NCBI GenBank assembly: GCA_009777335.1
Contig: WRMC01000003.1
Coordinates: 1 to 64,000 of the forward strand
Source of the DNA: Treponema sp.
Lineage (GTDB): Bacteria; Spirochaetota; Spirochaetia; Treponematales; Breznakiellaceae
Reading direction: 5' to 3'
Length of the DNA: 64,000 nucleotides
The position numbers and the translations under genes are program-made. A model generated the notes under the pieces. It was not told the DNA's origin, ran no database searches, and saw nothing but the letters and a program-made list of their open reading frames with translations. The first letter of the stretch is position 1. Every line of letters starts with the position of its first letter. This document shows, piece after piece, positions 13,643-54,137 of the stretch.

Positions 13643-14103
13643 CAAAAAAGCAGATAAAGTCAGTAGAAGATGCAGGGAACATTGTCAAGAAATACCGCAA
13701 TAAAAAGCAGGAAAACTTTTGGGCCTTGACCTTGGATTCTTCTCATAAGGTTATCAAGTGTCACCATGTTTCTAAGGGGGTCTTGAATAGGACTATAGTA
13801 CACCCTAGGGAGTGTTTTTACCATGCCATTCGGGACAACGCCCTGAGTGTCATGTTTGCCCATAATCACCCCAGCGGTGAACTTATCCCATCCGAAGAGG
13901 ATATCAGGATAACCAAAATGTTGACACTGGCAGGAAAGGTTTTGGGTATTCCTGTTGTGGATCACATCATCGTAGCCCGTGGGAATGATAGGGTCTACTC
14001 ATTTCAAAGAGACAGCGATGTTGCTAAGGATATGGCTAAAGGCTTGTCCTTTGAAGAGACAATGCAGTTTGTAGCGGAATTTTTTAGCATGTCCGAAAAA
14101 TAA
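13639..14103 (+). CDS. RadC-like JAB/MPN protein
   Basis: FAHNHPSGELIPSEEDIRIT JAMM motif. Confidence 0.85.
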   Translation: MTKKQIKSVEDAGNIVKKYRNKKQENFWALTLDSSHKVIKCHHVSKGVLNRTIVHPRECFYHAIRDNALSVMFAHNHPSGELIPSEEDIRITKMLTLAGKVLGIPVVDHIIVARGNDRVYSFQRDSDVAKDMAKGLSFEETMQFVAEFFSMSEK

Positions 14104-14153
14104 TTATGTGCAATATGTGGACATATGTGGACATAAGGGTACATAAGAGACAA
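14104..14153 (+). repeat. Iteron cluster A: five ~10-bp units (TTATGTGCAA TATGTGGACA TATGTGGACA TAAGGGTACA TAAGAGACAA)
   Basis: 10-bp periodicity read directly; related cluster at 53938. Confidence 0.7.
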
Positions 14154-14244
14154 GAATTTAATTAAAATTATTTTAATTTTCTTGACAGTTAGTGTAAAGA
14201 AGATATAAAATAATCTTTAATGGAACGTGAACGGAGGCGATAAG

Positions 14245-14511
14245 ATGAATCCTAAGAAAAGTGATGTTACTCCAGTGGGGTTATTTCTCAGAAGGCTCAG
14301 GTTTGAGCATAACGAAAGTCAAGAAGAGATGGCCCAGAAGTTAGGCATTACTGCCCCTTATATTAGCTTGCTCGAGTACAGGCAACCGTTGACGAAGAAG
14401 CTCGCTTTAGGGATTATTCGGTCTTACAACCTGAGCGGGAAAGAGAAAGATGCGTTTGTAAACATGGTGACCAATGATGTGGTGCAACGGTTTTGGGGGA
14501 AGGTGGGATGA
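14245..14511 (+). CDS. XRE-family HTH protein
   Basis: LRRLRFEHNESQEEMAQKLGITAPYISLLE. Confidence 0.85.
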   Translation: MNPKKSDVTPVGLFLRRLRFEHNESQEEMAQKLGITAPYISLLEYRQPLTKKLALGIIRSYNLSGKEKDAFVNMVTNDVVQRFWGKVG

Positions 14512-15173
14512 CAAGGGAAGAATACACACGGGAGCATTACAGGCGAGCTAAAATATGGAATGACCAGGAATGGCAAGCCGAGCAAAGAGAATTAGAAAAA
14601 TCCCATGTAGAAAATTTTATTAAGAGCGATCCCATTGCCGATGAATATAGCTCTTTATTAGAGAAATGTCTTTTAAACCAGTATTGGATTTCTGCGAAGT
14701 CAAGCCCTCACCAGTATACATTGATGAAAGATTTTAAGGATACAGGTGGCATAGAATATAGTTCAATAACTTCAGCAATAGGGAAATATGGTTTTTTTGG
14801 GTATTATTGGTGTGAATTGCACCAATACCTCATTTTAGGAGACTTTTATTACTGGAGTTCATTGTACCCGGACTCATGGGAATTGATAAACCGTTCTAGA
14901 ATTGATACCCCACCGAAAGAAGCGTATAAAACTAATTTTGAAGGGAAATGGGCAATTGTTGGAAAACCCAGTATTAAAAGTTACCCCTACCCTTGTAATC
15001 CTTATAACGGAAAACCTTTAGACAAGAACCCATTTAATGGGAACCCGATTAGAGAATTTAATTTGGACCCAGAGCATTGCAAATTTACAGTAAAAAGTAA
15101 TTATACAGAAGAAAAGAAACCAGTAGTTTATAAAGACAAACCTATAATTTACAGACAAGGGATGTTATTTTAG
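14508..15173 (+). CDS. hypothetical protein with N-terminal TREEYTREHYRRAK motif
   Basis: ORF; motif shared with MuF protein. Confidence 0.65.
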   Translation: MTREEYTREHYRRAKIWNDQEWQAEQRELEKSHVENFIKSDPIADEYSSLLEKCLLNQYWISAKSSPHQYTLMKDFKDTGGIEYSSITSAIGKYGFFGYYWCELHQYLILGDFYYWSSLYPDSWELINRSRIDTPPKEAYKTNFEGKWAIVGKPSIKSYPYPCNPYNGKPLDKNPFNGNPIREFNLDPEHCKFTVKSNYTEEKKPVVYKDKPIIYRQGMLF

Positions 15174-15182
15174 GAGGGACAA

Positions 15183-15848
15183 GTGAAAATTAATTGTACA
15201 TATAAAGAATTACTGCCCATTAGCCAACTCTCCATAAAAATGACCGAGAAGTTAAAAATACGGACTAAACAGAGCGTTAATGAAGAGGCAAGAAGGCTGC
15301 TTCTTCATGGATTTTTAACTCCTATTTTTGTATGGAAAAATAATCAAGTTAATGAGGTAGTTGACGGTGTAGGAAGGTGTCTTGCTATAAAAGCTATAAA
15401 CGATAATTTAATTGGCCTTAACCTTAATGGGGAATTGGAAAATAATCTAGGGGAAGAGGTAAAAGAAGCCCCAGTAGTTTATATTGAATCTACTTCATTA
15501 GAAGAGGCAAAGAAAAAGGTATTGCTTGTAAACTCTATGTTTGGGAAGATTGATAAAGATACACTGGAGGAATACAGTAAATTATCAGGGGATAGCGTAG
15601 ACTATATAAATTGCCATACTACATTTTTTGAGTATGTGAACGAAGTCGAGGCTGAGATGCCAGAAATATCTTTAGATTCCGAATGGCTAAACACTGGTTA
15701 TGAACCGAAAATTGGGGGGCATGATATATCAGAAGAAGACATAAGTAAAGCAGAGAAAAAAATCACTGAAATTGTAGCTACTAAAGAGAAAGAATATGTA
15801 ACAGTAACCTGCCATAATTGCGGACATATTTTCACTGTAGGTAAGTAG
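15183..15848 (+). CDS. ParB-like domain plus C-terminal zinc ribbon
   Basis: VVDGVGRCLAIKAI; C-terminal CHNCGHIF; same architecture as 20088-20585. Confidence 0.6.
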   Translation: MKINCTYKELLPISQLSIKMTEKLKIRTKQSVNEEARRLLLHGFLTPIFVWKNNQVNEVVDGVGRCLAIKAINDNLIGLNLNGELENNLGEEVKEAPVVYIESTSLEEAKKKVLLVNSMFGKIDKDTLEEYSKLSGDSVDYINCHTTFFEYVNEVEAEMPEISLDSEWLNTGYEPKIGGHDISEEDISKAEKKITEIVATKEKEYVTVTCHNCGHIFTVGK

Positions 15849-15877
15849 GAATTGCTAACACACGGGAGGGACATTAA

Positions 15878-16654
15878 ATGAACAGAAAAATACTCATCAT
15901 AGGATATGGGAATATAGGTAAACATATACATGAAGAATTAAAACCACTAGACCCTGATATTTATGACCCGTATATACCCGAATTTTCTAAAATGCCTACT
16001 GAAAATTATGATGTAGCCTTTATTGCAGTTCCCACTGAAATGAATCATGACGGGAGTTGTAATATCTCAATAGTAATAGAATCGGTAAAGAATGCCAATG
16101 CAAAGGTAATAGCAATACGTTCTACTGTTCCTCCGGGCACGAACAAAGAACTAACAAAAATAACAGGAAAAACCATAGTATCAGCTCCCGAGTTTTATGG
16201 AGTATCACAGCACAGCAAGAGAAACCTTGATTTCATCATTTTGGGGGCAGACGGGCCGAGTAAATATGCCGTAGGTCAAGTATTCGCCAAAGTAAAAACC
16301 GGGAACTATCGTATACATTATACTGATTCTCTTACAGCAGAATTGGTAAAATATATGTTAAATTGCTACCTTGCGATGAAGGTAACATTTTGCAATGAGT
16401 TTGCTTTAGTAGCAAATAAAATTGGAGTTGAGTACCAGGAGTTAAGAGAATTATTTATCTTAGATGAAAGAATAAGCCCGTCTCATACTATCTCATATCC
16501 AGAACAGCCATTTTACGACAATCATTGCTTTAATAAAGATGTACCAGCATTCTTGAAATTCACTAAGTCAATTGGCATTGAACCTAAATTAGTAGAAGCA
16601 GTCGAAAAAGTAAACAAAGAGATGAAAAGTAAGTATGGTGGCTTAGATGACTAA
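15878..16654 (+). CDS. UDP-glucose/GDP-mannose dehydrogenase-like protein lacking the C-terminal NDP-sugar domain
   Basis: IIGYGNIGKH, RSTVPPGT, AELVKYMLN, HCFNKDVPAF. Confidence 0.75.
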   Translation: MNRKILIIGYGNIGKHIHEELKPLDPDIYDPYIPEFSKMPTENYDVAFIAVPTEMNHDGSCNISIVIESVKNANAKVIAIRSTVPPGTNKELTKITGKTIVSAPEFYGVSQHSKRNLDFIILGADGPSKYAVGQVFAKVKTGNYRIHYTDSLTAELVKYMLNCYLAMKVTFCNEFALVANKIGVEYQELRELFILDERISPSHTISYPEQPFYDNHCFNKDVPAFLKFTKSIGIEPKLVEAVEKVNKEMKSKYGGLDD

Positions 16655-17465
16655 AAAGCTGTTTTCTGCCGTTTGGTGTCTTGATGCCAGTGACAAGTAT
16701 TTTCTAGGGGCAAGTAGTAGCATCTGTTCATGTATGAAATACCATGGAGATGATATATTATACCACATAATAACCAGTAAAGAATTAACTGCATTTCAGA
16801 AGGATATAGTCAATAGAATTACTAGGACGTATGGGCAGGAAATTGAAATAGTAAAACTTAATGGAATATCTGCATTCAAAGGATATTCACGTTCATGGCC
16901 CCCCATCGTTTATGCACGACTTTTAATTGGCGACCACTTTAAACTACCTTATATGGCTATTGATGCAGATGTGTTATTTTTTTCCAAAATAGATGATATA
17001 TCTTTCCTCACGCCCGAAAAACCAATAGCATCTTTATGCGACAGTGCCCAGATAAAAAAAGGAAAAATGGAAAAGTTGAATAATGCATTCGGATCCACAA
17101 TGGATAAATACTTGAATGGTGGAGTATTATTTGTATTACCAGGAACAATCCATAAAAGAGTAGTCCCGGAGTTTTTAAAAAAGCATGGTAAACACCCAGC
17201 GTTAGAGCATAATGAACAAGATATAGTGAACATCATATTTTCAGGAAAAACCCAGTATTACCCGGATGGGTATGGTTTATTATTATACAACCGAAGCAAG
17301 AAGTGGAAAAATGAACGAATCAACGAAATAATGGGGGGGGGGGGGTATAAGTTTGTGCACATATTTGAAAAACAATGGGTCGAGACCAGTGTTTTCTATG
17401 AATTGCATAAGTCATATCTTTACGAAATTGGTATTAACTCTGATGCTATAGTGGAGAATGTATAG
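16647..17465 (+). CDS. GT8-like glycosyltransferase
   Basis: YARLLIGDHF..YMAIDADVLFF (DxD), HNEQDIVN. Confidence 0.75.
   Translation: MTKKLFSAVWCLDASDKYFLGASSSICSCMKYHGDDILYHIITSKELTAFQKDIVNRITRTYGQEIEIVKLNGISAFKGYSRSWPPIVYARLLIGDHFKLPYMAIDADVLFFSKIDDISFLTPEKPIASLCDSAQIKKGKMEKLNNAFGSTMDKYLNGGVLFVLPGTIHKRVVPEFLKKHGKHPALEHNEQDIVNIIFSGKTQYYPDGYGLLLYNRSKKWKNERINEIMGGGGYKFVHIFEKQWVETSVFYELHKSYLYEIGINSDAIVENV
17333..17345 (+). repeat. poly-G tract (G13) inside GT8 gene
   Basis: atggggggggggggg tataa; codons ATG GGG GGG GGG GGG TAT. Confidence 0.95.
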
Positions 17466-17924
17466 ATGATTTTATTTGATTACAGGATTGGTGTCTCCCA
17501 GAATAACGGGCTAGGTCTATTCACGAAAGAAAAAATAGGTAAAGGACAGGTATGCTTTGTTTCTACCCCGAATCTTGATCAAACTTTAACGGAAGAAGAG
17601 TTTGCATATTTGCCTAATGTAGACCAGGAAGAGATTATACATTATGGGTATAAAGACGAGCGGACAAATCTTTATAGGTTAGATTTTGATGTAGGATTAA
17701 GGTTCTTGAATCATTCTGCTGATTCGAATATTACGCAAGATATAAATGATAGTGACACTTATCTTACGGCAAAAAGGGATATTGAGGCAGGAGAAGAAAT
17801 TCTTTGGAATTACTTAGAAATCATGGATATTGAATTTTTCAGGAAGGGTTTTAATTACCTCCCAATAGACGATGTTGAAAAACTCATAGAAGAATCATTA
17901 TATGCTAATACCAAGGAGCAGTAA
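17466..17924 (+). CDS. SET-domain protein
   Basis: NGLGLFTKEKIGKGQ, RFLNHSADSNI, IEAGEEILWNY. Confidence 0.75.
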   Translation: MILFDYRIGVSQNNGLGLFTKEKIGKGQVCFVSTPNLDQTLTEEEFAYLPNVDQEEIIHYGYKDERTNLYRLDFDVGLRFLNHSADSNITQDINDSDTYLTAKRDIEAGEEILWNYLEIMDIEFFRKGFNYLPIDDVEKLIEESLYANTKEQ

Positions 17925-17925
17925 T

Positions 17926-18486
17926 ATGAACCACAGGATATCAATTAGAGATATTATGGTTGATAATCTCGATGATTTGTTTAAGGGAGAGAAAGCAGAG
18001 GCTATGTATTGTGACCCACCTTGGGGAATAGGCCATATAAAGTATTTTAGGACATTAAACGGGCAGAAACATAAGCAGAGTGATGATTGGCTTACGTTCT
18101 TAGGAAGAATTAAATTCCTTTATAATCGGCATGTTACTGGCCCATTGTTTCTAGAGTGTGGCCCACGATTCGTTAACGATATATTACAAGTCTTTGGAAC
18201 CCCGTCAGCAAAGTATGAATGTAAATATGGTGCTGGGTTACCTTTCTTTGTTTTATGTTTCGGGGCAGTGCCAGCAAACAGCCCAGTAGCATTTAAGGAT
18301 TGGAAAATACCTTACACAGTTTTAGGGTCTATACAAAATAAGCCCAAAAGCGTTTTTGATTGTTGTGTAGGATTAGGGCAAACTGCTAGGGCTTGCAAAG
18401 AAATAGGGGCTATATGCTATGCGAATGAACTAAACCCGCAAAGAGCAGAAAAAACGATGAAGATTCTCGATTTCGAGCAAGTTTGA
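17926..18486 (+). CDS. amino-methyltransferase-like protein (N4C/N6A type)
   Basis: YCDPPWGIGH then C-terminal VFDCCVGLGQTARA (motif IV before I). Confidence 0.7.
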   Translation: MNHRISIRDIMVDNLDDLFKGEKAEAMYCDPPWGIGHIKYFRTLNGQKHKQSDDWLTFLGRIKFLYNRHVTGPLFLECGPRFVNDILQVFGTPSAKYECKYGAGLPFFVLCFGAVPANSPVAFKDWKIPYTVLGSIQNKPKSVFDCCVGLGQTARACKEIGAICYANELNPQRAEKTMKILDFEQV

Positions 18487-18498
18487 GGGGCAGAAAAC

Positions 18499-19101
18499 AT
18501 GAAGTTTATTATGAGGACAACTTACGAAAGAAAAGTAGATGAATACCCTAAAGACATTCCGGGACTTATATTTTCAACAATATCAGAACGAAGCGGGTAT
18601 AAAAACTTTCAGAACGCATTATCAATAGCAGGTGATGATTCGGCTGTCCACATGGAAGACGACATAATTTTATGTGCAGATTTCTATAACCGTATTAAAA
18701 TCATAGTTAACGAACGCCCCAATGATATTATACAGTTTTTCAGCGGGACCAGAAGCGATGACCAAAAAAAAGGTACTAGGTATGAAACAGGTGCAAAATT
18801 TTTATGGGCCCAATGTTTTTATTTGCCACCTGGGATGAGTAAGGAAATGTATCATTTTAGCTTAAACTGGAAAGATAGGGATAACAAGTTTGGCGGATGG
18901 TCTGATGTAATGGTTGCAGACTATTTTAAGATGAAAAAAAGGAAGTATCTTGTAGTAGTTCCTAGTTTGGTAGACCACATGGAAGGAAAATCCCTCATAG
19001 ACCCAAGGCGTAGCAGTAAAAGGCAATCTAAAACATTCAAGATGTCTCCTCCACTTGAAGAGTATGGCCTTGGGCTCATCACCATAAAGGGAGGGGCGTA
19101 G
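18499..19101 (+). CDS. GT-A-like glycosyltransferase
   Basis: VHMEDDIILC; VVPSLVDHMEGKSLI. Confidence 0.6.
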   Translation: MKFIMRTTYERKVDEYPKDIPGLIFSTISERSGYKNFQNALSIAGDDSAVHMEDDIILCADFYNRIKIIVNERPNDIIQFFSGTRSDDQKKGTRYETGAKFLWAQCFYLPPGMSKEMYHFSLNWKDRDNKFGGWSDVMVADYFKMKKRKYLVVVPSLVDHMEGKSLIDPRRSSKRQSKTFKMSPPLEEYGLGLITIKGGA

Positions 19102-20091
19102 ATGCCAAAGGATTATGAAAATCTATGTGAAAGCATTGACTCAATAGACGAATTAAAGCGTTTAAGCAGGATATCAATTCAAGACCTTAAAAAATATATT
19201 AAAAATACTCTATGTGCCCCGCCGTGGGAAGGATTTAATAACGGTGATATTTCAGATAGGATAAATGAAAGCTTAAATTATTTCTATTGGTTATTTGGTG
19301 GGCATATAGACGAACTAGGAAAATACAGGCCGGAACCACAATACCTAGAAAAGATAAGTAGATTTATAACTGGCTATGTTAAACTTTATGGTGATTTTAT
19401 GGATTCAACCGAATCATGGAAGCCAGAGTATAATGAATTAGTTTGCAATGATAAAAGACTTAAGATGGAAGATTATGAGGAGGGGTACAATACATTCAAT
19501 GAGTTTTTTACCAGGAGGTTAAAAAACGGAAAAAGGCCAATAGGAGAAGGATTTGTCTCTCCAGTCGATGGCGTGATTCAAAACGTACACCCTATAAATG
19601 ATGGGATTGTCGCTACTAAAATTAAATCATCAATTTATCAGCAAATTCAAGAATTGATTCAGGAACCACTAAATAATGGTACTCTAATAAGTCTTTTCTT
19701 AGATGTTTATGATTATCACCGTATTCATGCCCCCGATGACATGACGGTAACGAGTATTCGCAAGGTAAAGGGTGGTAATTTTGTAGGTGGGTTTGTTGAA
19801 TATATCAATGGCAAGTATGTATTAGACAGCTCAGAGTATGGGTGGCAGTCTCTTGAGACCAGAGTTATTGTCAAAGCTTGTAATGAAACCATAGGTAGAT
19901 TTTGGATAGTCCCAGTAGGGATGTCCCATGTAGGTTCTATTGAGATAACCTGTAAAGAAGGAGATACTATTAAAAAGGGAAGTGAAATAGGTTTATTTAA
20001 ATTTGGCGGTTCTTGCGTAGTCATTATTATCGAAGCACCGATTGGAAAAATACAAAAAAAACACTTTTTAATGGGAGAGAGGCTACTATGA
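19102..20091 (+). CDS. psd: phosphatidylserine decarboxylase-like enzyme
   Basis: FNEFFTRRLKNGKRPI, SPVDG, YDYHRIHAP, VGMSHVGSIE, IGLFKFGGSCVVII. Confidence 0.85.
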   Translation: MPKDYENLCESIDSIDELKRLSRISIQDLKKYIKNTLCAPPWEGFNNGDISDRINESLNYFYWLFGGHIDELGKYRPEPQYLEKISRFITGYVKLYGDFMDSTESWKPEYNELVCNDKRLKMEDYEEGYNTFNEFFTRRLKNGKRPIGEGFVSPVDGVIQNVHPINDGIVATKIKSSIYQQIQELIQEPLNNGTLISLFLDVYDYHRIHAPDDMTVTSIRKVKGGNFVGGFVEYINGKYVLDSSEYGWQSLETRVIVKACNETIGRFWIVPVGMSHVGSIEITCKEGDTIKKGSEIGLFKFGGSCVVIIIEAPIGKIQKKHFLMGERLL

Positions 20092-20585
20092 AAGTGAATG
20101 ATTGTGGCAGTGATTTAATTGATTTTCATGAACTTACAGAGTTTCAGGGCAACTTCAAAATTAGAACAGATTTGGACATCAATGAAATTAAGTCCAAAAT
20201 TATGGAGTACGGGTTTTCTTTCCCTATGTTTGTGTGGGAATGTGAGGGTAAAAAATATGTCATTGATGGACATGGAAGATTGGAGGCACTTAAAAGCCTG
20301 GAGGAGGACGGTCATTCTATCCCTCCTGTTCCAGTGGTTTATGTCAAAGCGACTGATACCAAAGAGGCAATTAGGATACTTCTATTGTGTAATACCAGAT
20401 TTGGATATATTACCGACACCTCCGCAGACAATTTTATGGATGGTATTGATTATAAAGGTATGCTAGAAAACCTTAGTTTAGATGAACTAATCATGTCACC
20501 AGAGGAAGTGCCAACGGTATACCCAGCAGGGGACATAATTTGCCCAAAATGCGGCACCGTCCACATTGTTTATGAGGCCCAATGA
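20088..20585 (+). CDS. ParB-like domain plus C-terminal zinc ribbon
   Basis: VIDGHGRLEAL; C-terminal CPKCGTVH. Confidence 0.7.
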   Translation: MKVNDCGSDLIDFHELTEFQGNFKIRTDLDINEIKSKIMEYGFSFPMFVWECEGKKYVIDGHGRLEALKSLEEDGHSIPPVPVVYVKATDTKEAIRILLLCNTRFGYITDTSADNFMDGIDYKGMLENLSLDELIMSPEEVPTVYPAGDIICPKCGTVHIVYEAQ

Positions 20586-21685
20586 AAGTTTACTACAACG
20601 ACAATGTTGTTCAAGCCGCTCTTAAAAGGACCCGATTTATCTATCAACATTTTGGTGATAAAACCTATGTGTCTTTTTCTGGAGGGAAGGATTCCACCGT
20701 TTGCCTTGAGTTGGCTCATATTGTTGCAGAAGAAATGGGCCTTTTACCAGTTAATGTTATGTGGCTAGATCAGGAAGCAGAATGGGGAATGACAGTAGAG
20801 TATGCGAAAAGAGTATTCTCATTACCTTGGGTAAAACCATATTGGATTCAAACCCCGTTTATATTGGATTGCTCCTTAAATGGACATGACGGGGGCTTAA
20901 AATGCTGGGAAGGTGATACCATACGTGAAAAAGACCCGAATTCAATACATGAAATACCGGGAAGTAAAGACAAGGTATTTTATGACACGTTAGATTTGAT
21001 TCAAAAAGAACTATTCAAAGACGGGTGTACCATATATGGGATGAGGTGTGAAGAGAGTCCAAATAGGTACCTGGGGCTAGTAACCATTAAGAAATTTGTC
21101 GGCCCCGAGGTGTGGGGAGCCGTCAGTAAGCCAAAAAGAGCAGCAGTAATTTATGACTGGTCTACAAGCGATGTCTGGAAATTCATAAGTGAACATGACC
21201 TCGATTATAACAGATTATATGACTTTCAATATGCCAAGGGATTACCCATTTTCAGAATGAGGGTATCTTCTTTAATCCACGAAACCGCATTCACAGCCTT
21301 AGATTATGCCCAGGAACTAGAAGGAGAGATGTGGGAAAAGCTTACAGAACGTATCCATGGCATAAACACATATAAACATTGCCCAGAAGCTTATCAAATA
21401 CCAAAAAAACTACCTGTTATGTTCCAAAATTGGCGAGAATATAGAGATTTTCTGTTAATAAAACTAATCCAAGATGAAAAACACTTGGAAAGTATGAAAA
21501 AAGCATTTGAGAGAGACGATAAAAAAACACCATTTTACCCTAAAGACGTAGCCTCCCGGGTTTATTTGACTCATATTAAAACAATTTTAGCAGATGATTA
21601 CTATTTAACAGGTTTGACTAACCTTAAGGCTCTAACGGGTAAATATGACCAAGCAATTGTTAAGAAGACAGGGGGTGTAATATGA
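20582..21685 (+). CDS. PAPS-reductase-family (IbrA-like) protein
   Basis: VSFSGGKDSTVCLELA..MWLDQEAEWGMT. Confidence 0.8.
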   Translation: MKVYYNDNVVQAALKRTRFIYQHFGDKTYVSFSGGKDSTVCLELAHIVAEEMGLLPVNVMWLDQEAEWGMTVEYAKRVFSLPWVKPYWIQTPFILDCSLNGHDGGLKCWEGDTIREKDPNSIHEIPGSKDKVFYDTLDLIQKELFKDGCTIYGMRCEESPNRYLGLVTIKKFVGPEVWGAVSKPKRAAVIYDWSTSDVWKFISEHDLDYNRLYDFQYAKGLPIFRMRVSSLIHETAFTALDYAQELEGEMWEKLTERIHGINTYKHCPEAYQIPKKLPVMFQNWREYRDFLLIKLIQDEKHLESMKKAFERDDKKTPFYPKDVASRVYLTHIKTILADDYYLTGLTNLKALTGKYDQAIVKKTGGVI

Positions 21686-22341
21686 GCATAGACGAAGCCA
21701 TTCAAATTATTAACGAATATATTGGTGATGACATCGAAAGAGCCAATGAAATAAGAGCCCATATAAAAGCAGTCAGCCAACCGATAGACCATGTTATCTG
21801 GGTGCCCGTAGAGAAAGTTTACCCTAATTCATATAACCCCAACTCTGTAGCAAAAAAGGAGTTGGCTCTCCTAAAAAAGAGTATCGAAGCAGACGGGTAT
21901 ACACAGCCCATAGTCACAGTAAAAGACGAAGATGGCAGATACTGCATCATCGATGGGTTTCATAGATATTTCGTGGGTAAGTCAGTAGATACTATTAAGG
22001 ACAGGAATAAAGGATATCTACCTATAGTTGTCTTAGAAAAAACCATGGAAGAGCGTATGGCTGCTACAGTACGGCACAATAGGGCCAGGGGAACCCATGG
22101 AATATCTAATATGTCTAAACTTGTCTTTAATATGCTCTCCCAGGGGATGGACGAAAAAGACATCGCCAATGAATTAGGGATGGAAGCCGAGGAGGTACTT
22201 AGGTTAAAGCATATTACTGGGTTTTCTAAGCTTTTCGAAGACAAGGAATACGGGAAAGCATGGGAAACTACGAAAATGGCGGCTCATAGGGTTGAATACT
22301 TAAAAAACCACCCTGATGAGTACGGCGTATCTTATGAGTAG
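21682..22341 (+). CDS. ParB-like (IbrB-like) protein
   Basis: VYPNSYNPNSV..GYTQPIV..IIDGFHRY; ATGA overlap with IbrA-like gene. Confidence 0.8.
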   Translation: MSIDEAIQIINEYIGDDIERANEIRAHIKAVSQPIDHVIWVPVEKVYPNSYNPNSVAKKELALLKKSIEADGYTQPIVTVKDEDGRYCIIDGFHRYFVGKSVDTIKDRNKGYLPIVVLEKTMEERMAATVRHNRARGTHGISNMSKLVFNMLSQGMDEKDIANELGMEAEEVLRLKHITGFSKLFEDKEYGKAWETTKMAAHRVEYLKNHPDEYGVSYE

Positions 22342-22373: not shown

Positions 22374-22934
22374 ATGCCGAGAGAAAGACCTGGCAAATTG
22401 ACCAGGTTTTCATCAGAAAACCAGCCAGCTAAACGTAGCCCAGGAAGACCTAAAAATGTCTTTGGACCACTGGCGAAGGCTGATAATCTTACGAATGAGG
22501 ATGTCAAAAAAATTTGTAAAAACCTGCTAAAAAGCGACCCAAGTGAATTGTCAAAGGTGGTAGCAAAATATCCGACCGTTTTAACAGTTACTTTGGCTAA
22601 TATGCTGACCCAAGAAATTAAAGGGAAGTTAACGGGCAGGATGGAGGCAACGGGGAGGTTATTACCGACCGGGAAGCATGATTCGGAAGGTAACATGATA
22701 ATGGAACCAGAATTGCGGCCTGAGAGAGAAAGGTCATTTGATACGGTGAAGTATATGATAGACCGTTGCTTTGGGAAGCCCGTGGAGACAGGAATCATAC
22801 TATCTGGGACCATATCAGAGGAATCAGAGGTAAGGATTAAGAATATATTCGAGAATACCTTTATTGAATCGGAAGCAATAGAACCCGATGTTATTGCTGA
22901 AAAAATGGAGTATTTGGAGCCGGACGATGGGTGA
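22374..22934 (+). CDS. terminase small subunit-like protein
   Basis: DUF5681-like N-terminus; directly upstream of large terminase. Confidence 0.6.
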   Translation: MPRERPGKLTRFSSENQPAKRSPGRPKNVFGPLAKADNLTNEDVKKICKNLLKSDPSELSKVVAKYPTVLTVTLANMLTQEIKGKLTGRMEATGRLLPTGKHDSEGNMIMEPELRPERERSFDTVKYMIDRCFGKPVETGIILSGTISEESEVRIKNIFENTFIESEAIEPDVIAEKMEYLEPDDG

Positions 22935-24279
22935 TTGGAGAGGGTTACTTAACTCAGAAAAGGCTATCATGATGGTGGCTAAGCAACCTCATTTACTCGG
23001 TCATATCATCGGCAAGGATAAACTTACCCCAGTACACAGCGACTGGATACGATACATTTGGGACACGAACCAGCAAAGAGCCCTAATGGCTTACCGTGGC
23101 AGTTATAAAACTACAGCAATATGCACCATTGGAACTATCCGATGGATGCTCTTTAACCCGGATGACCGCATAGCCATTTTCAGGAAAAACGTGGGTCATT
23201 CTGCTGATGTGGTTAATACCGTGGCTCAGGCAATGCAATATACCGAGGTAGCAGAGATTTTCAAGTATCGCTTTGGAGAGTACCCCAATGCAAAGATACA
23301 GCGGAATGGGGCATTGCAATACACCTTCAAAAAGACGATAACCCCGGAGCCGAATGTCATTGCCCTTGGGGTGTCCAGTGGAGATATCACGGGTAAGCAT
23401 TTTGATAAAATAATCATTGATGACTTCGCAACAATTCGAGATAGGGTAAGCAGAGCAGAAAGACAGCACACCAAGTTATCCCTAATGGAAATACAAACAA
23501 ACATCATCGACCCTAAGAAGGGAGTTGGCTACATCGGCACCCCGTGGCACCGGGATGATGCTTGGAAGTATGTCAACAGTCTCTGTCCCGTGGCAAAGTA
23601 CCCTATTAGCAGGTATGGAAGCATTGTAGGTGAAGACGAGGTAAAGAATAAAAAGGCAACTACCACGCCAGCCCTATATGCCGCTAATTATGAGTTAGAC
23701 CTTATATCTGACGAATCCCTCTTGTTCCAGGACCCGGTTTATTCAAAGGGGTGGGATTACACTAACCGATCTGTAGCCCAACTTGATACTGCCTACGATG
23801 GGAACCATTTCTGTGCTCTCACCATTGCTTCGGCAATAAAGGGTGAAGGCGAAAACACGGTCTACCAAGTAGTTGGCTTTACTTATCCTGGTAACATACG
23901 GGATTGGTATGATACGATTGTTTCGATGTGCAAGAAGTACCGGGTCACAGCCTTGCACGAAGAATCGAATGCTGATAAGGGAATGAGTGCTAATGACCTT
24001 ACGAAAAAGGGGCTCAATGTTATTTCCTATAGTGAAAGACAGAGCAAGCATTACAAGATTAGCACCCACTTATACAAGGTGTGGCGTAATATAGAATGGG
24101 CACCTGAGACAGATGATGAATACATGGCACAGATCATCGACTATCAGGAAGGAAGTACACCCGATGATGCACCTGACAGTGCCGCTTCACTCTTTCGTGA
24201 AGCATTTTTCAAGAACATTGCTTTCGATGAAGAGCATCGTAATCAAATGGCATCCAGGCGGATGAGGGAGGCGGTATGA
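22927..24279 (+). CDS. terminase large subunit
   Basis: RGSYKTTA Walker A; FDKIIIDDFATI Walker B; nuclease region. Confidence 0.85.
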   Translation: MGDWRGLLNSEKAIMMVAKQPHLLGHIIGKDKLTPVHSDWIRYIWDTNQQRALMAYRGSYKTTAICTIGTIRWMLFNPDDRIAIFRKNVGHSADVVNTVAQAMQYTEVAEIFKYRFGEYPNAKIQRNGALQYTFKKTITPEPNVIALGVSSGDITGKHFDKIIIDDFATIRDRVSRAERQHTKLSLMEIQTNIIDPKKGVGYIGTPWHRDDAWKYVNSLCPVAKYPISRYGSIVGEDEVKNKKATTTPALYAANYELDLISDESLLFQDPVYSKGWDYTNRSVAQLDTAYDGNHFCALTIASAIKGEGENTVYQVVGFTYPGNIRDWYDTIVSMCKKYRVTALHEESNADKGMSANDLTKKGLNVISYSERQSKHYKISTHLYKVWRNIEWAPETDDEYMAQIIDYQEGSTPDDAPDSAASLFREAFFKNIAFDEEHRNQMASRRMREAV

Positions 24280-38424: not shown

Positions 38425-39157
38425 TATGTACGTTTATCCAGTAAACGCTATTGAAGCATCAATCCCTGTATCTGCTCAGTTACCCATGAGTTCTAATATG
38501 ATGGACCTGTACAACAGGTATCTCGCCTATCAAGTTGATTTTAACGAGCCAATTATAGAGATATCTGGTACATGGCAGAATCCTATTCCCATAAACACAA
38601 TTATCGTGGGCAATACGAATGCCAAGACCGGGGTCATCCGTTTATACAGCCATAATACTCTAATCTATGAGAAACACTTCGTTGTAACTGACATCATTAC
38701 CATCGTGGAGTTTAAGGATGTCTGGAATAACTTCATTACCATGGATGTTACCGAATACAGCATCCAACTAAGCGGTGATGAAATCCTGGCAATAGGCTTG
38801 CTGTTCTTAGGTGAAGCGTGGGAATTGCCAAGGTTTTCTATAATACCTATTGAAGAAATAAGGCTTAGGGGAGATAGTGGTCGGTCGTTCTCAGGACAGG
38901 CAACAGGCATTATAGCAGAGCCCTTACGTTCTTTTACTGCTATATTTACCAGAGTACCCCATGAAATGAAAGCAAAGTTTGATGATTATATACATGGTGT
39001 TCAGAATGTTCTACCCCATGTAATAAACCCGTACCCAGAAGCTACTGATAAGGTTAAGCCCTTTTTCGCTACCGTAGATAGTTATAGCCCAGCGGAAAAA
39101 AGGCATGAAGATAATTTCTTTTGGAACTTTAGTTGCGTATGGCAGGAGGCTAAGTAA
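38417..39157 (+). CDS. distal tail-like protein
   Basis: position after tape measure. Confidence 0.5.
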   Translation: MFDMYVYPVNAIEASIPVSAQLPMSSNMMDLYNRYLAYQVDFNEPIIEISGTWQNPIPINTIIVGNTNAKTGVIRLYSHNTLIYEKHFVVTDIITIVEFKDVWNNFITMDVTEYSIQLSGDEILAIGLLFLGEAWELPRFSIIPIEEIRLRGDSGRSFSGQATGIIAEPLRSFTAIFTRVPHEMKAKFDDYIHGVQNVLPHVINPYPEATDKVKPFFATVDSYSPAEKRHEDNFFWNFSCVWQEAK

Positions 39158-40758
39158 TGACCGAAATAATAAGTGAACCAGCAGACGAGAACCCAGACAA
39201 CACCGATTGGCAACGAAACCTCTTTAGAAACACGTTCATTGGTTATAACCTGTTGGATATAAACATCAATAACCAGACCTTCAAAAAAGGAAGTAGGCTT
39301 GGAATAAACGGTAGTTTTTATGTTGTGAAAGAGGACCAAGAAATAGAAGAATGGGATAATACATGGCCCGACTTCCATGATATTTATGTGTACGCAAAGC
39401 CTTTGCCCTATTCTGCCACCTTCTATTTTAGTCTTACTGAACCAGATTTTAGCCCAGAGAAAAACGGCATGTACAGGGGAACCGATAGAGCCATAGCTTG
39501 TGGGCACAAGATGAACCAGTCGTTCTTCGTTACAGAATACATTGAAAAGATACGGAATCGGTACCAGATGATCTCTCTGGCCTCGAGAGGATATATAAAT
39601 GCTGATATAGAAGGCTCTTACATTATGCGAGCTAATTCCATTTATGAAAGCAACGGGGCTATGAGAGGTAATAGTTTTGATCAACCGATAGAAGGCTTTC
39701 TTGAATCCTGGCCCGAAGGGGCTCATGTATATTTATATGCTGAAGACCTGTCTCCAATGTCTGAATACTATTTTTCGTTAACTGCTCCTATAAGAGACAT
39801 GATTAGAGGTGGGCTGTATCATAATAATAATAAATGCTTGGCTTTTGGCATAAAGGCAGATAATAGGTTTCATTTAATAAACTGGCTGCAACCTTGGAAC
39901 ACTATTTCAACGGTGGTAGGTACTATATGGGAAGGCAATCAGGATACTACCTTAACTCTTGCCCCAGGGCGGTACACCATTATTCTCCGTGGTGGTAATG
40001 GTGGCAACGGTGGCAGAGGAGGGAATGCATTCACTGGCGCTAATGGTGGTTTAGGTGGTTTAGGTTCACAGGGTGATGTTGTTACTCAAGAAATTATTAT
40101 AGGTACAGCTTCATCAGTTAATGCACAAGTTTTGGTGGGCCGTCATGGTGGAAATGGCTTAGATGCATCAGATGTTACTATAAATTATAATAATATAGTA
40201 TTACCAGGTGGTGGTGGTGGTGGTGGTGGATTGCCAGCTTTATTTTCTATTCCAAGTATCGATCTTACAATAATAAGTGGTGCTGGGCATGGTGGTGGTG
40301 GTGGAAGTGGATCTCACAGAGGTACTGCAACAGTATATACACAAGGATCTAATGGGCAAAATGCCAATGGCAATTCTGTTAATGGAGGAAGTGGTGGTGG
40401 TGGTGGTGGTAGTCGCAACGCAGAAAGTAACAATATATATTCTTTAGGTGGAGTAGGTCATAACGGGGCTGGTGATGGCGGTGATGTCTATTATCCACCA
40501 ACTATGTGGACAATCTTCCATCGTTCAGGTGGTGATGGAGGCGTTCCTCCTGATAACGGTAACAATGGGATAGATGTAACTATAAATTATTGGTTGATAA
40601 ATGGAGGCATAGGTGGTCAAGGACGAACGATAGGATCTCGTAATGCAGGAGGAGGAGGAGGAGGTGGTCCTGGCAATGACCAGAGTAGGCCAGGTGCGAA
40701 CGGCGGAACTGGAGGCACAGGAGCAACCACAATCTGCGGAGTATACCGAACCCTATGA
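39157..40758 (+). CDS. tail adhesin with C-terminal glycine-rich domain
   Basis: LTLAPGRYTIILRGGNGGNGGRGG and multiple poly-Gly runs. Confidence 0.65.
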   Translation: MTEIISEPADENPDNTDWQRNLFRNTFIGYNLLDININNQTFKKGSRLGINGSFYVVKEDQEIEEWDNTWPDFHDIYVYAKPLPYSATFYFSLTEPDFSPEKNGMYRGTDRAIACGHKMNQSFFVTEYIEKIRNRYQMISLASRGYINADIEGSYIMRANSIYESNGAMRGNSFDQPIEGFLESWPEGAHVYLYAEDLSPMSEYYFSLTAPIRDMIRGGLYHNNNKCLAFGIKADNRFHLINWLQPWNTISTVVGTIWEGNQDTTLTLAPGRYTIILRGGNGGNGGRGGNAFTGANGGLGGLGSQGDVVTQEIIIGTASSVNAQVLVGRHGGNGLDASDVTINYNNIVLPGGGGGGGGLPALFSIPSIDLTIISGAGHGGGGGSGSHRGTATVYTQGSNGQNANGNSVNGGSGGGGGGSRNAESNNIYSLGGVGHNGAGDGGDVYYPPTMWTIFHRSGGDGGVPPDNGNNGIDVTINYWLINGGIGGQGRTIGSRNAGGGGGGGPGNDQSRPGANGGTGGTGATTICGVYRTL

Positions 40759-54063: not shown

Positions 54064-54137
54064 GGGCCCCTAGCTCAGTTGGTTAGAGCAGCAGACTCAT
54101 AATCCGCGGGTCCTGTGTTCAAGTCACAGGGGGCCCA
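54064..54137 (+). tRNA. tRNA with CAT anticodon (Met or Ile2)
   Basis: 7-bp acceptor GGGCCCC/GGGGCCC, D stem GCTC/GAGC, anticodon loop CTCATAA, T arm CTGTG-TTCAAGT-CACAG; no encoded CCA. Confidence 0.9.

Follow-up and report, generated by a model that had tools for sequence, protein, structure and literature searches.

A candidate poly-G contingency switch in a prophage-borne GT8 glycosyltransferase gene of Treponema sp.

In Treponema pallidum, phase variation by poly-G tracts is established, and the tracts are documented mainly in promoters; for tprL, tract lengths of 7-11 have been reported (PMC7864442). Poly-G switches within coding sequences are described as established in Neisseria (PMC3786947) and Campylobacter (PMC6321876). 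At such contingency loci, including meningococcal HmbR/HpuAB and Campylobacter surface genes, a long run of G inside the open reading frame is in frame at every third length, gain or loss of one base truncates the product, and glycosyltransferases are typical targets. A link to phage is provided by the gtr operons of Salmonella prophages, which carry a phase-variable glycosyltransferase that alters the lysogen by glucosylation of the O-antigen. Switching of Salmonella gtr is under Dam/OxyR control and does not involve homopolymer slippage.

Here, a stretch of 64 kb from Treponema sp. (the window) was analysed, in which a prophage-borne GT8 glycosyltransferase gene contains a run of 13 G. We suggest that this run is a slipped-strand contingency-type translational switch, and from the sequence we put the probability of this reading at roughly 0.6. 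The locus shares all of the above features with the coding contingency loci, but its tract lies at 84% of the gene and not near the start, the gene belongs to a prophage, and the tract length is known from one assembly. With the T. pallidum tracts (tprE/G/J, tp0126, tprL), whose length determines expression, it has in common the poly-G itself and probably a related lineage; those tracts, however, act in promoters and are not phage-borne. The treponemal precedent invoked in the original prediction therefore fits the lineage better than the coding mechanism. With the Salmonella operons the locus shares a glycosyltransferase carried by a phage. In this company it would be a homopolymer contingency locus that is unusual as phage cargo.

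The window covers the first 64 kb of contig C3 (171 kb) in an assembly of 2.16 Mb, which comprises 28 contigs and is 77% complete. Bases 1 to about 54,000 are prophage, with a G+C content of 0.36-0.52; a tRNA-Met gene is located at 54064, and beyond it the G+C content is 0.54-0.59, as in other parts of the contig. The prophage encodes a terminase large subunit, a head morphogenesis protein, a tape measure protein and Sak4-like recombination proteins. The terminase gene (22888-24279, forward strand, as are GT8 and the cargo genes whose coordinates follow) marks the cargo as lying within the prophage; among phages, its nearest relatives are found in Leptospira phages, which makes a spirochaete host, from a large family with few cultured members, probable, and related prophages of the host family have a terminase in common with the window (36-58%). 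The surrounding phage genes thus bear out that the gene is phage-borne, and the Pfam match given below that it encodes a GT8 glycosyltransferase.

The GT8 gene (16647-17465, 272 aa) is part of an A+T-rich cargo block at 14-22 kb. Its start is overlapped by a gene for a UDP-glucose/GDP-mannose dehydrogenase-like protein (15878-16654), and directly after its stop begins the gene for a SET-domain protein (17466-17924; PF00856, 1.2e-11), which is a candidate for polarity or translational coupling with GT8. A second glycosyltransferase-like protein (18499-19101) has a 52% identical copy in a related prophage stretch where no GT8 was found. Further cargo consists of methyltransferase-like, phosphatidylserine decarboxylase-like, ParB-like and PAPS-reductase-like proteins, so that the block at 14000-22300 combines these with two glycosyltransferase-like proteins. 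Cargo mixtures of this type can go with phage DNA hypermodification, and by analogy the target of the GT8 enzyme may be DNA. Neither a GtrA flippase nor a GtrB bactoprenol glucosyltransferase, both expected in a lysogenic conversion operon of the gtr type, was found among the cargo proteins scanned next to GT8, where the neighbours are the dehydrogenase-like, SET-domain, unassigned methyltransferase-like, decarboxylase-like and PAPS-reductase-like proteins.

The assignment to GT8 (LgtC/glycogenin type) is based on a match to PF01501 (E 1.5e-13, 51.4 bits against a cut-off of 24.3) and on the alignment, in which the motifs DAD, NGGV and VHIF..KQW are present, i.e. a DxD motif and a C-terminal His/KPW-like motif. 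We take these to have the active-site role that they have in the GT8 family. In GT8 enzymes of solved structure, the His of the C-terminal motif is a metal ligand. VHIF..KQW aligns with IIHF..KPW of other GT8s, both from the phylum and from a Campylobacter phage, and in the same alignment the residues GGGGYK immediately preceding it fall into gap columns of the aligning rows. The protein differs from other GT8s in an insertion of four glycines before the C-terminal motif, in KQW for KPW, and in its short C-terminus. A single-sequence structure model was of low confidence (mean pLDDT 32.8).

The tract (17333-17345) consists of exactly 13 G between a T and the sequence TATAAG, and comprises the last base of Met229 and the codons of Gly230-233. 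Read from the ATG at 16647, the sequence is ATG GGG GGG GGG GGG TAT, in agreement with the original prediction in both base count and frame. It is the sole homopolymer longer than 9 in the window, where the runner-up is a T9 and other G/C runs do not exceed 8. Within the prophage (1-54000) there are 1081, 316, 70, 9 and 3 G/C runs at lengths 3 to 7, respectively, and then the single run of 13; geometric extrapolation of these run lengths predicts 0.0004 runs of at least 13. A G13 was present in 5 of 100 dinucleotide shuffles of the window, a null that is more lenient because it retains the GG dinucleotides contributed by the tract. When the GT8 protein was re-encoded using the codon usage of the prophage, a 13-base run arose in 20 of 2000 draws (1%). 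The tract is longer than expected by chance, strongly so by run length and modestly by dinucleotide shuffle.

All four glycines of the tract are encoded by GGG, whereas adjacent GGG codons never occur in the 13 other glycine runs (three or more residues) of the examined prophage genes, which use mixed or GGT/GGA codons and include one of eight glycines. Given that the four glycines form an insertion and that GGG repeats are avoided elsewhere, G13 looks like a feature of the DNA rather than of the protein. Another simple repeat in the prophage, the trinucleotide (GGT)7.7 at 40207-40229, lies in a Gly-rich tail-region protein (39157-40758), and here the frame would be preserved under changes in length.

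Simulation of tract lengths around the assembled one, at which the gene is in frame (ON), showed that the frame is regained at 10 and 16 G. With 14 G the product is 234 aa long and ends ...MGGGGV at a TAA (17348-17350), the immediate stop that had been foreseen for the gain of one base. With 12 G a product of 267 aa with a foreign tail results, terminating at a TAG (17449-17451) just 5' of the next gene; the shift had been expected to affect the last ~40 codons, and 39 residues follow the glycine run. These 39 codons (17346-17462) include VHIF..KQW, and the segment is absent from both out-of-frame products. Since 267 codons are kept at 12 G, an OFF state after loss of one base depends on loss of the motif and not on length. 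On this basis a slip at the site looks fatal to the predicted enzyme, and the frame logic of a switch appears to hold. As to the downstream gene, a GGAG is found nine bases 5' of the SET-domain start codon, from which the stops in the +1 and -1 frames are distant by about 115 and 14 bases, respectively. From this difference we infer that the +1 state would be the more likely one to exert polarity on the SET-domain gene.

Under the proposed mechanism, replication slippage would add or remove G in the tract. GT8 would be ON at 10, 13 or 16 G and OFF after a change of one base, by an immediate stop or a scrambled tail, either of which would delete the C-terminal segment with its probable metal-ligand His and KPW-like motif. 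Within one clone, lysogens as well as phage genomes would then comprise both ON and OFF forms, and the switching would be reversible. The enzyme would presumably attach sugar to the surface glycan of the lysogen, to phage DNA or to the virion. Natural variation of the tract, and selection on it, are likewise presumed. A more tentative proposal, to which we give rather less than even odds, is that a temperate phage from a spirochaete lineage rich in poly-G switches its own cargo by slippage, such that lysogens or virions would stochastically carry or lack the sugar modification.

Long G-tracts are common in the host family. A tract of at least 11 G was found in 112 of 121 family genomes, compared with 82 of 195 in the rest of the phylum (four family members being left out of the latter count), although counts from draft assemblies may be inflated because homopolymers gather at contig tips. 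Three family genomes that consist of a single contig (G029, G030, G041) contain 2, 6 and 15 tracts, and intergenic G-runs of 40-61 occur in single-contig genomes. The positions of the family tracts are mixed: many are intergenic, some precede TATAAT, and others fall in signal-peptide or N-terminal codons. Among 78 tracts examined, 31 run into TA and four of these into TATAAT. The tracts in candidate positions fit the view that the family may carry further contingency-type loci.

Several classes of tract can be described. An orthologous, promoter-like tract of the form TTGACAATARCAC-G13-TATAATC is found in two genera, at L046 (genome G029) and L047 (genome G015), around 1450-1600; TTGACA-N7-G13-TATAAT is conserved between the two and located 5' of small secreted proteins, making this a candidate poly-G spacer promoter. 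G/C-tracts in signal-peptide or N-terminal codons were seen in L063, L064, L081 (around 1500) and L023 (1-120). The genes concerned encode solute-binding proteins and lipoproteins, several of them out of frame as assembled, and are candidate phase-variable surface genes in which the tract has the position typical of a translational switch. One of these (L023) is from the genome analysed here, where at the tip of contig C7 the start of a lipoprotein gene runs into a 17-base tract. In the same genome, at the end of contig C9, an ORF that by eye resembles the reverse transcriptase of a DGR (YMDD; L024, 4366-5415) runs into a G15 shortly 5' of its stop.

Many intergenic G-tracts of 11-61 bases adjoin a conserved imperfect palindrome of 25-27 bases, several of them 5' of lipoprotein genes; examples are GTAAGTCGTTACAGGATAAGGAGTTACAT-G(n)-TAAC and TAATTCTTTGCTATATAAACAATTACAT-G(n)-TAAC. 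This combination is present in genomes G006, G041, G042, G089 and others (L036, L039, L071, L072, L077, L086-L093), and resembles a dispersed element that ends in poly-G. The flanks of the tract in the window did not match those of other tracts at E 1e-6, which rules out that it is part of this dispersed intergenic element.

In the assembly from which the window is taken (G000), the tips of contigs C4, C6, C7, C9, C10, C21, C24 and C26 are rich in long G/C runs, and some of these continue into degenerate homopolymer sequence. This pattern suggests genuine G-tracts as the places where the assembly was interrupted.

Searches for homologues of GT8 bear on whether the tract is conserved. Protein searches of the family (101-121 genomes) and the phylum (395 genomes) recovered only the query itself. 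No GT8 homologue was found among plasmids, no relative among the sequences of solved structures, and no match in genome contigs searched with GT8 and with the terminase; the DNA of the region recovered only itself from 41 genomes. Among phages, only two from Campylobacter match GT8, at 25% identity over residues 11-201, ending before the tract. In the stretches read of related prophages (G009, G054, G089, G092, G086), GT8 was absent and all G-runs were shorter than 9. Distant GT8s in the alignment are without the four-glycine insertion, and no close homologue was found for comparison of the tract. Of the argument for a phase switch, the tract, the frame logic, the exclusive use of GGG and the G-tract-rich family are supported.

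The abundance of intergenic tracts raises the alternative that long G-runs are simply what mutation in these genomes generally produces: replication and repair in the family might let G-runs grow wherever they are tolerated, in which case G13 would slip but not be selected. The scattered long tracts in intergenic DNA, including those of 40-61 G in single-contig genomes, agree with such a neutral, hypermutable run, as do the location of the four glycines in a probably tolerated insertion and the lack of GT8 relatives in the family. However, G13 is the only run longer than 9 in the prophage and lies inside a gene for a glycosyltransferase, an enzyme type often encoded by contingency genes in other bacteria, and runs of GGG are avoided in the remaining Gly-rich genes of this prophage; we regard the neutral explanation as less likely than a switch, but as its main rival. 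It is far less probable, and indeed very unlikely, that the glycines are an ordinary loop needed by the protein whose codons became GGG by drift. Although GGG is the commonest Gly codon of the prophage (30%), this share gives four consecutive GGG a probability of only about 0.008, and aligning GT8 relatives have no residues at the site. Moreover, a run of 13 G slips physically, whatever its origin.

An error of assembly, with the tract absent or of the wrong length, is also highly improbable. Other long tracts in this genome are indeed mostly found no more than about 110 bases from a contig end, some in degenerate homopolymer sequence. This one, however, lies 17 kb into a contig of 171 kb, has part of a single GT8 frame on either side, and keeps that frame at its length of 13; the common frame of the flanks also speaks against a chimeric join at the tract. 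The exact length might nevertheless be wrong by one or more bases. The least probable explanation is that G13 before TATAAG tunes an internal promoter of the SET-domain gene. The family tracts that run into TA or TATAAT, above all the conserved pair in two genera, lend it some appeal; against it, coding explains the position in a conserved reading frame, none of the promoter-like matches near the tract uses TATAAG at 17346, and matches in the region are at the level of shuffled sequence.

A search of literature titles and abstracts, which covered few subscription journals, returned phase-variable prophage gtr genes but no phage gene that is switched by slippage, and no study of the poly-G tracts of this family was found. 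If the tract varies, the contingency switch proposed here would be of the simple-sequence kind and part of a phage genome, and the phage would bring along its own bet-hedging on sugar modification. More than 100 genomes of the family allow poly-G tracts in promoters, signal peptides and intergenic regions to be compared, and it could then be asked how the poly-G phase variation described in T. pallidum originated and spread.
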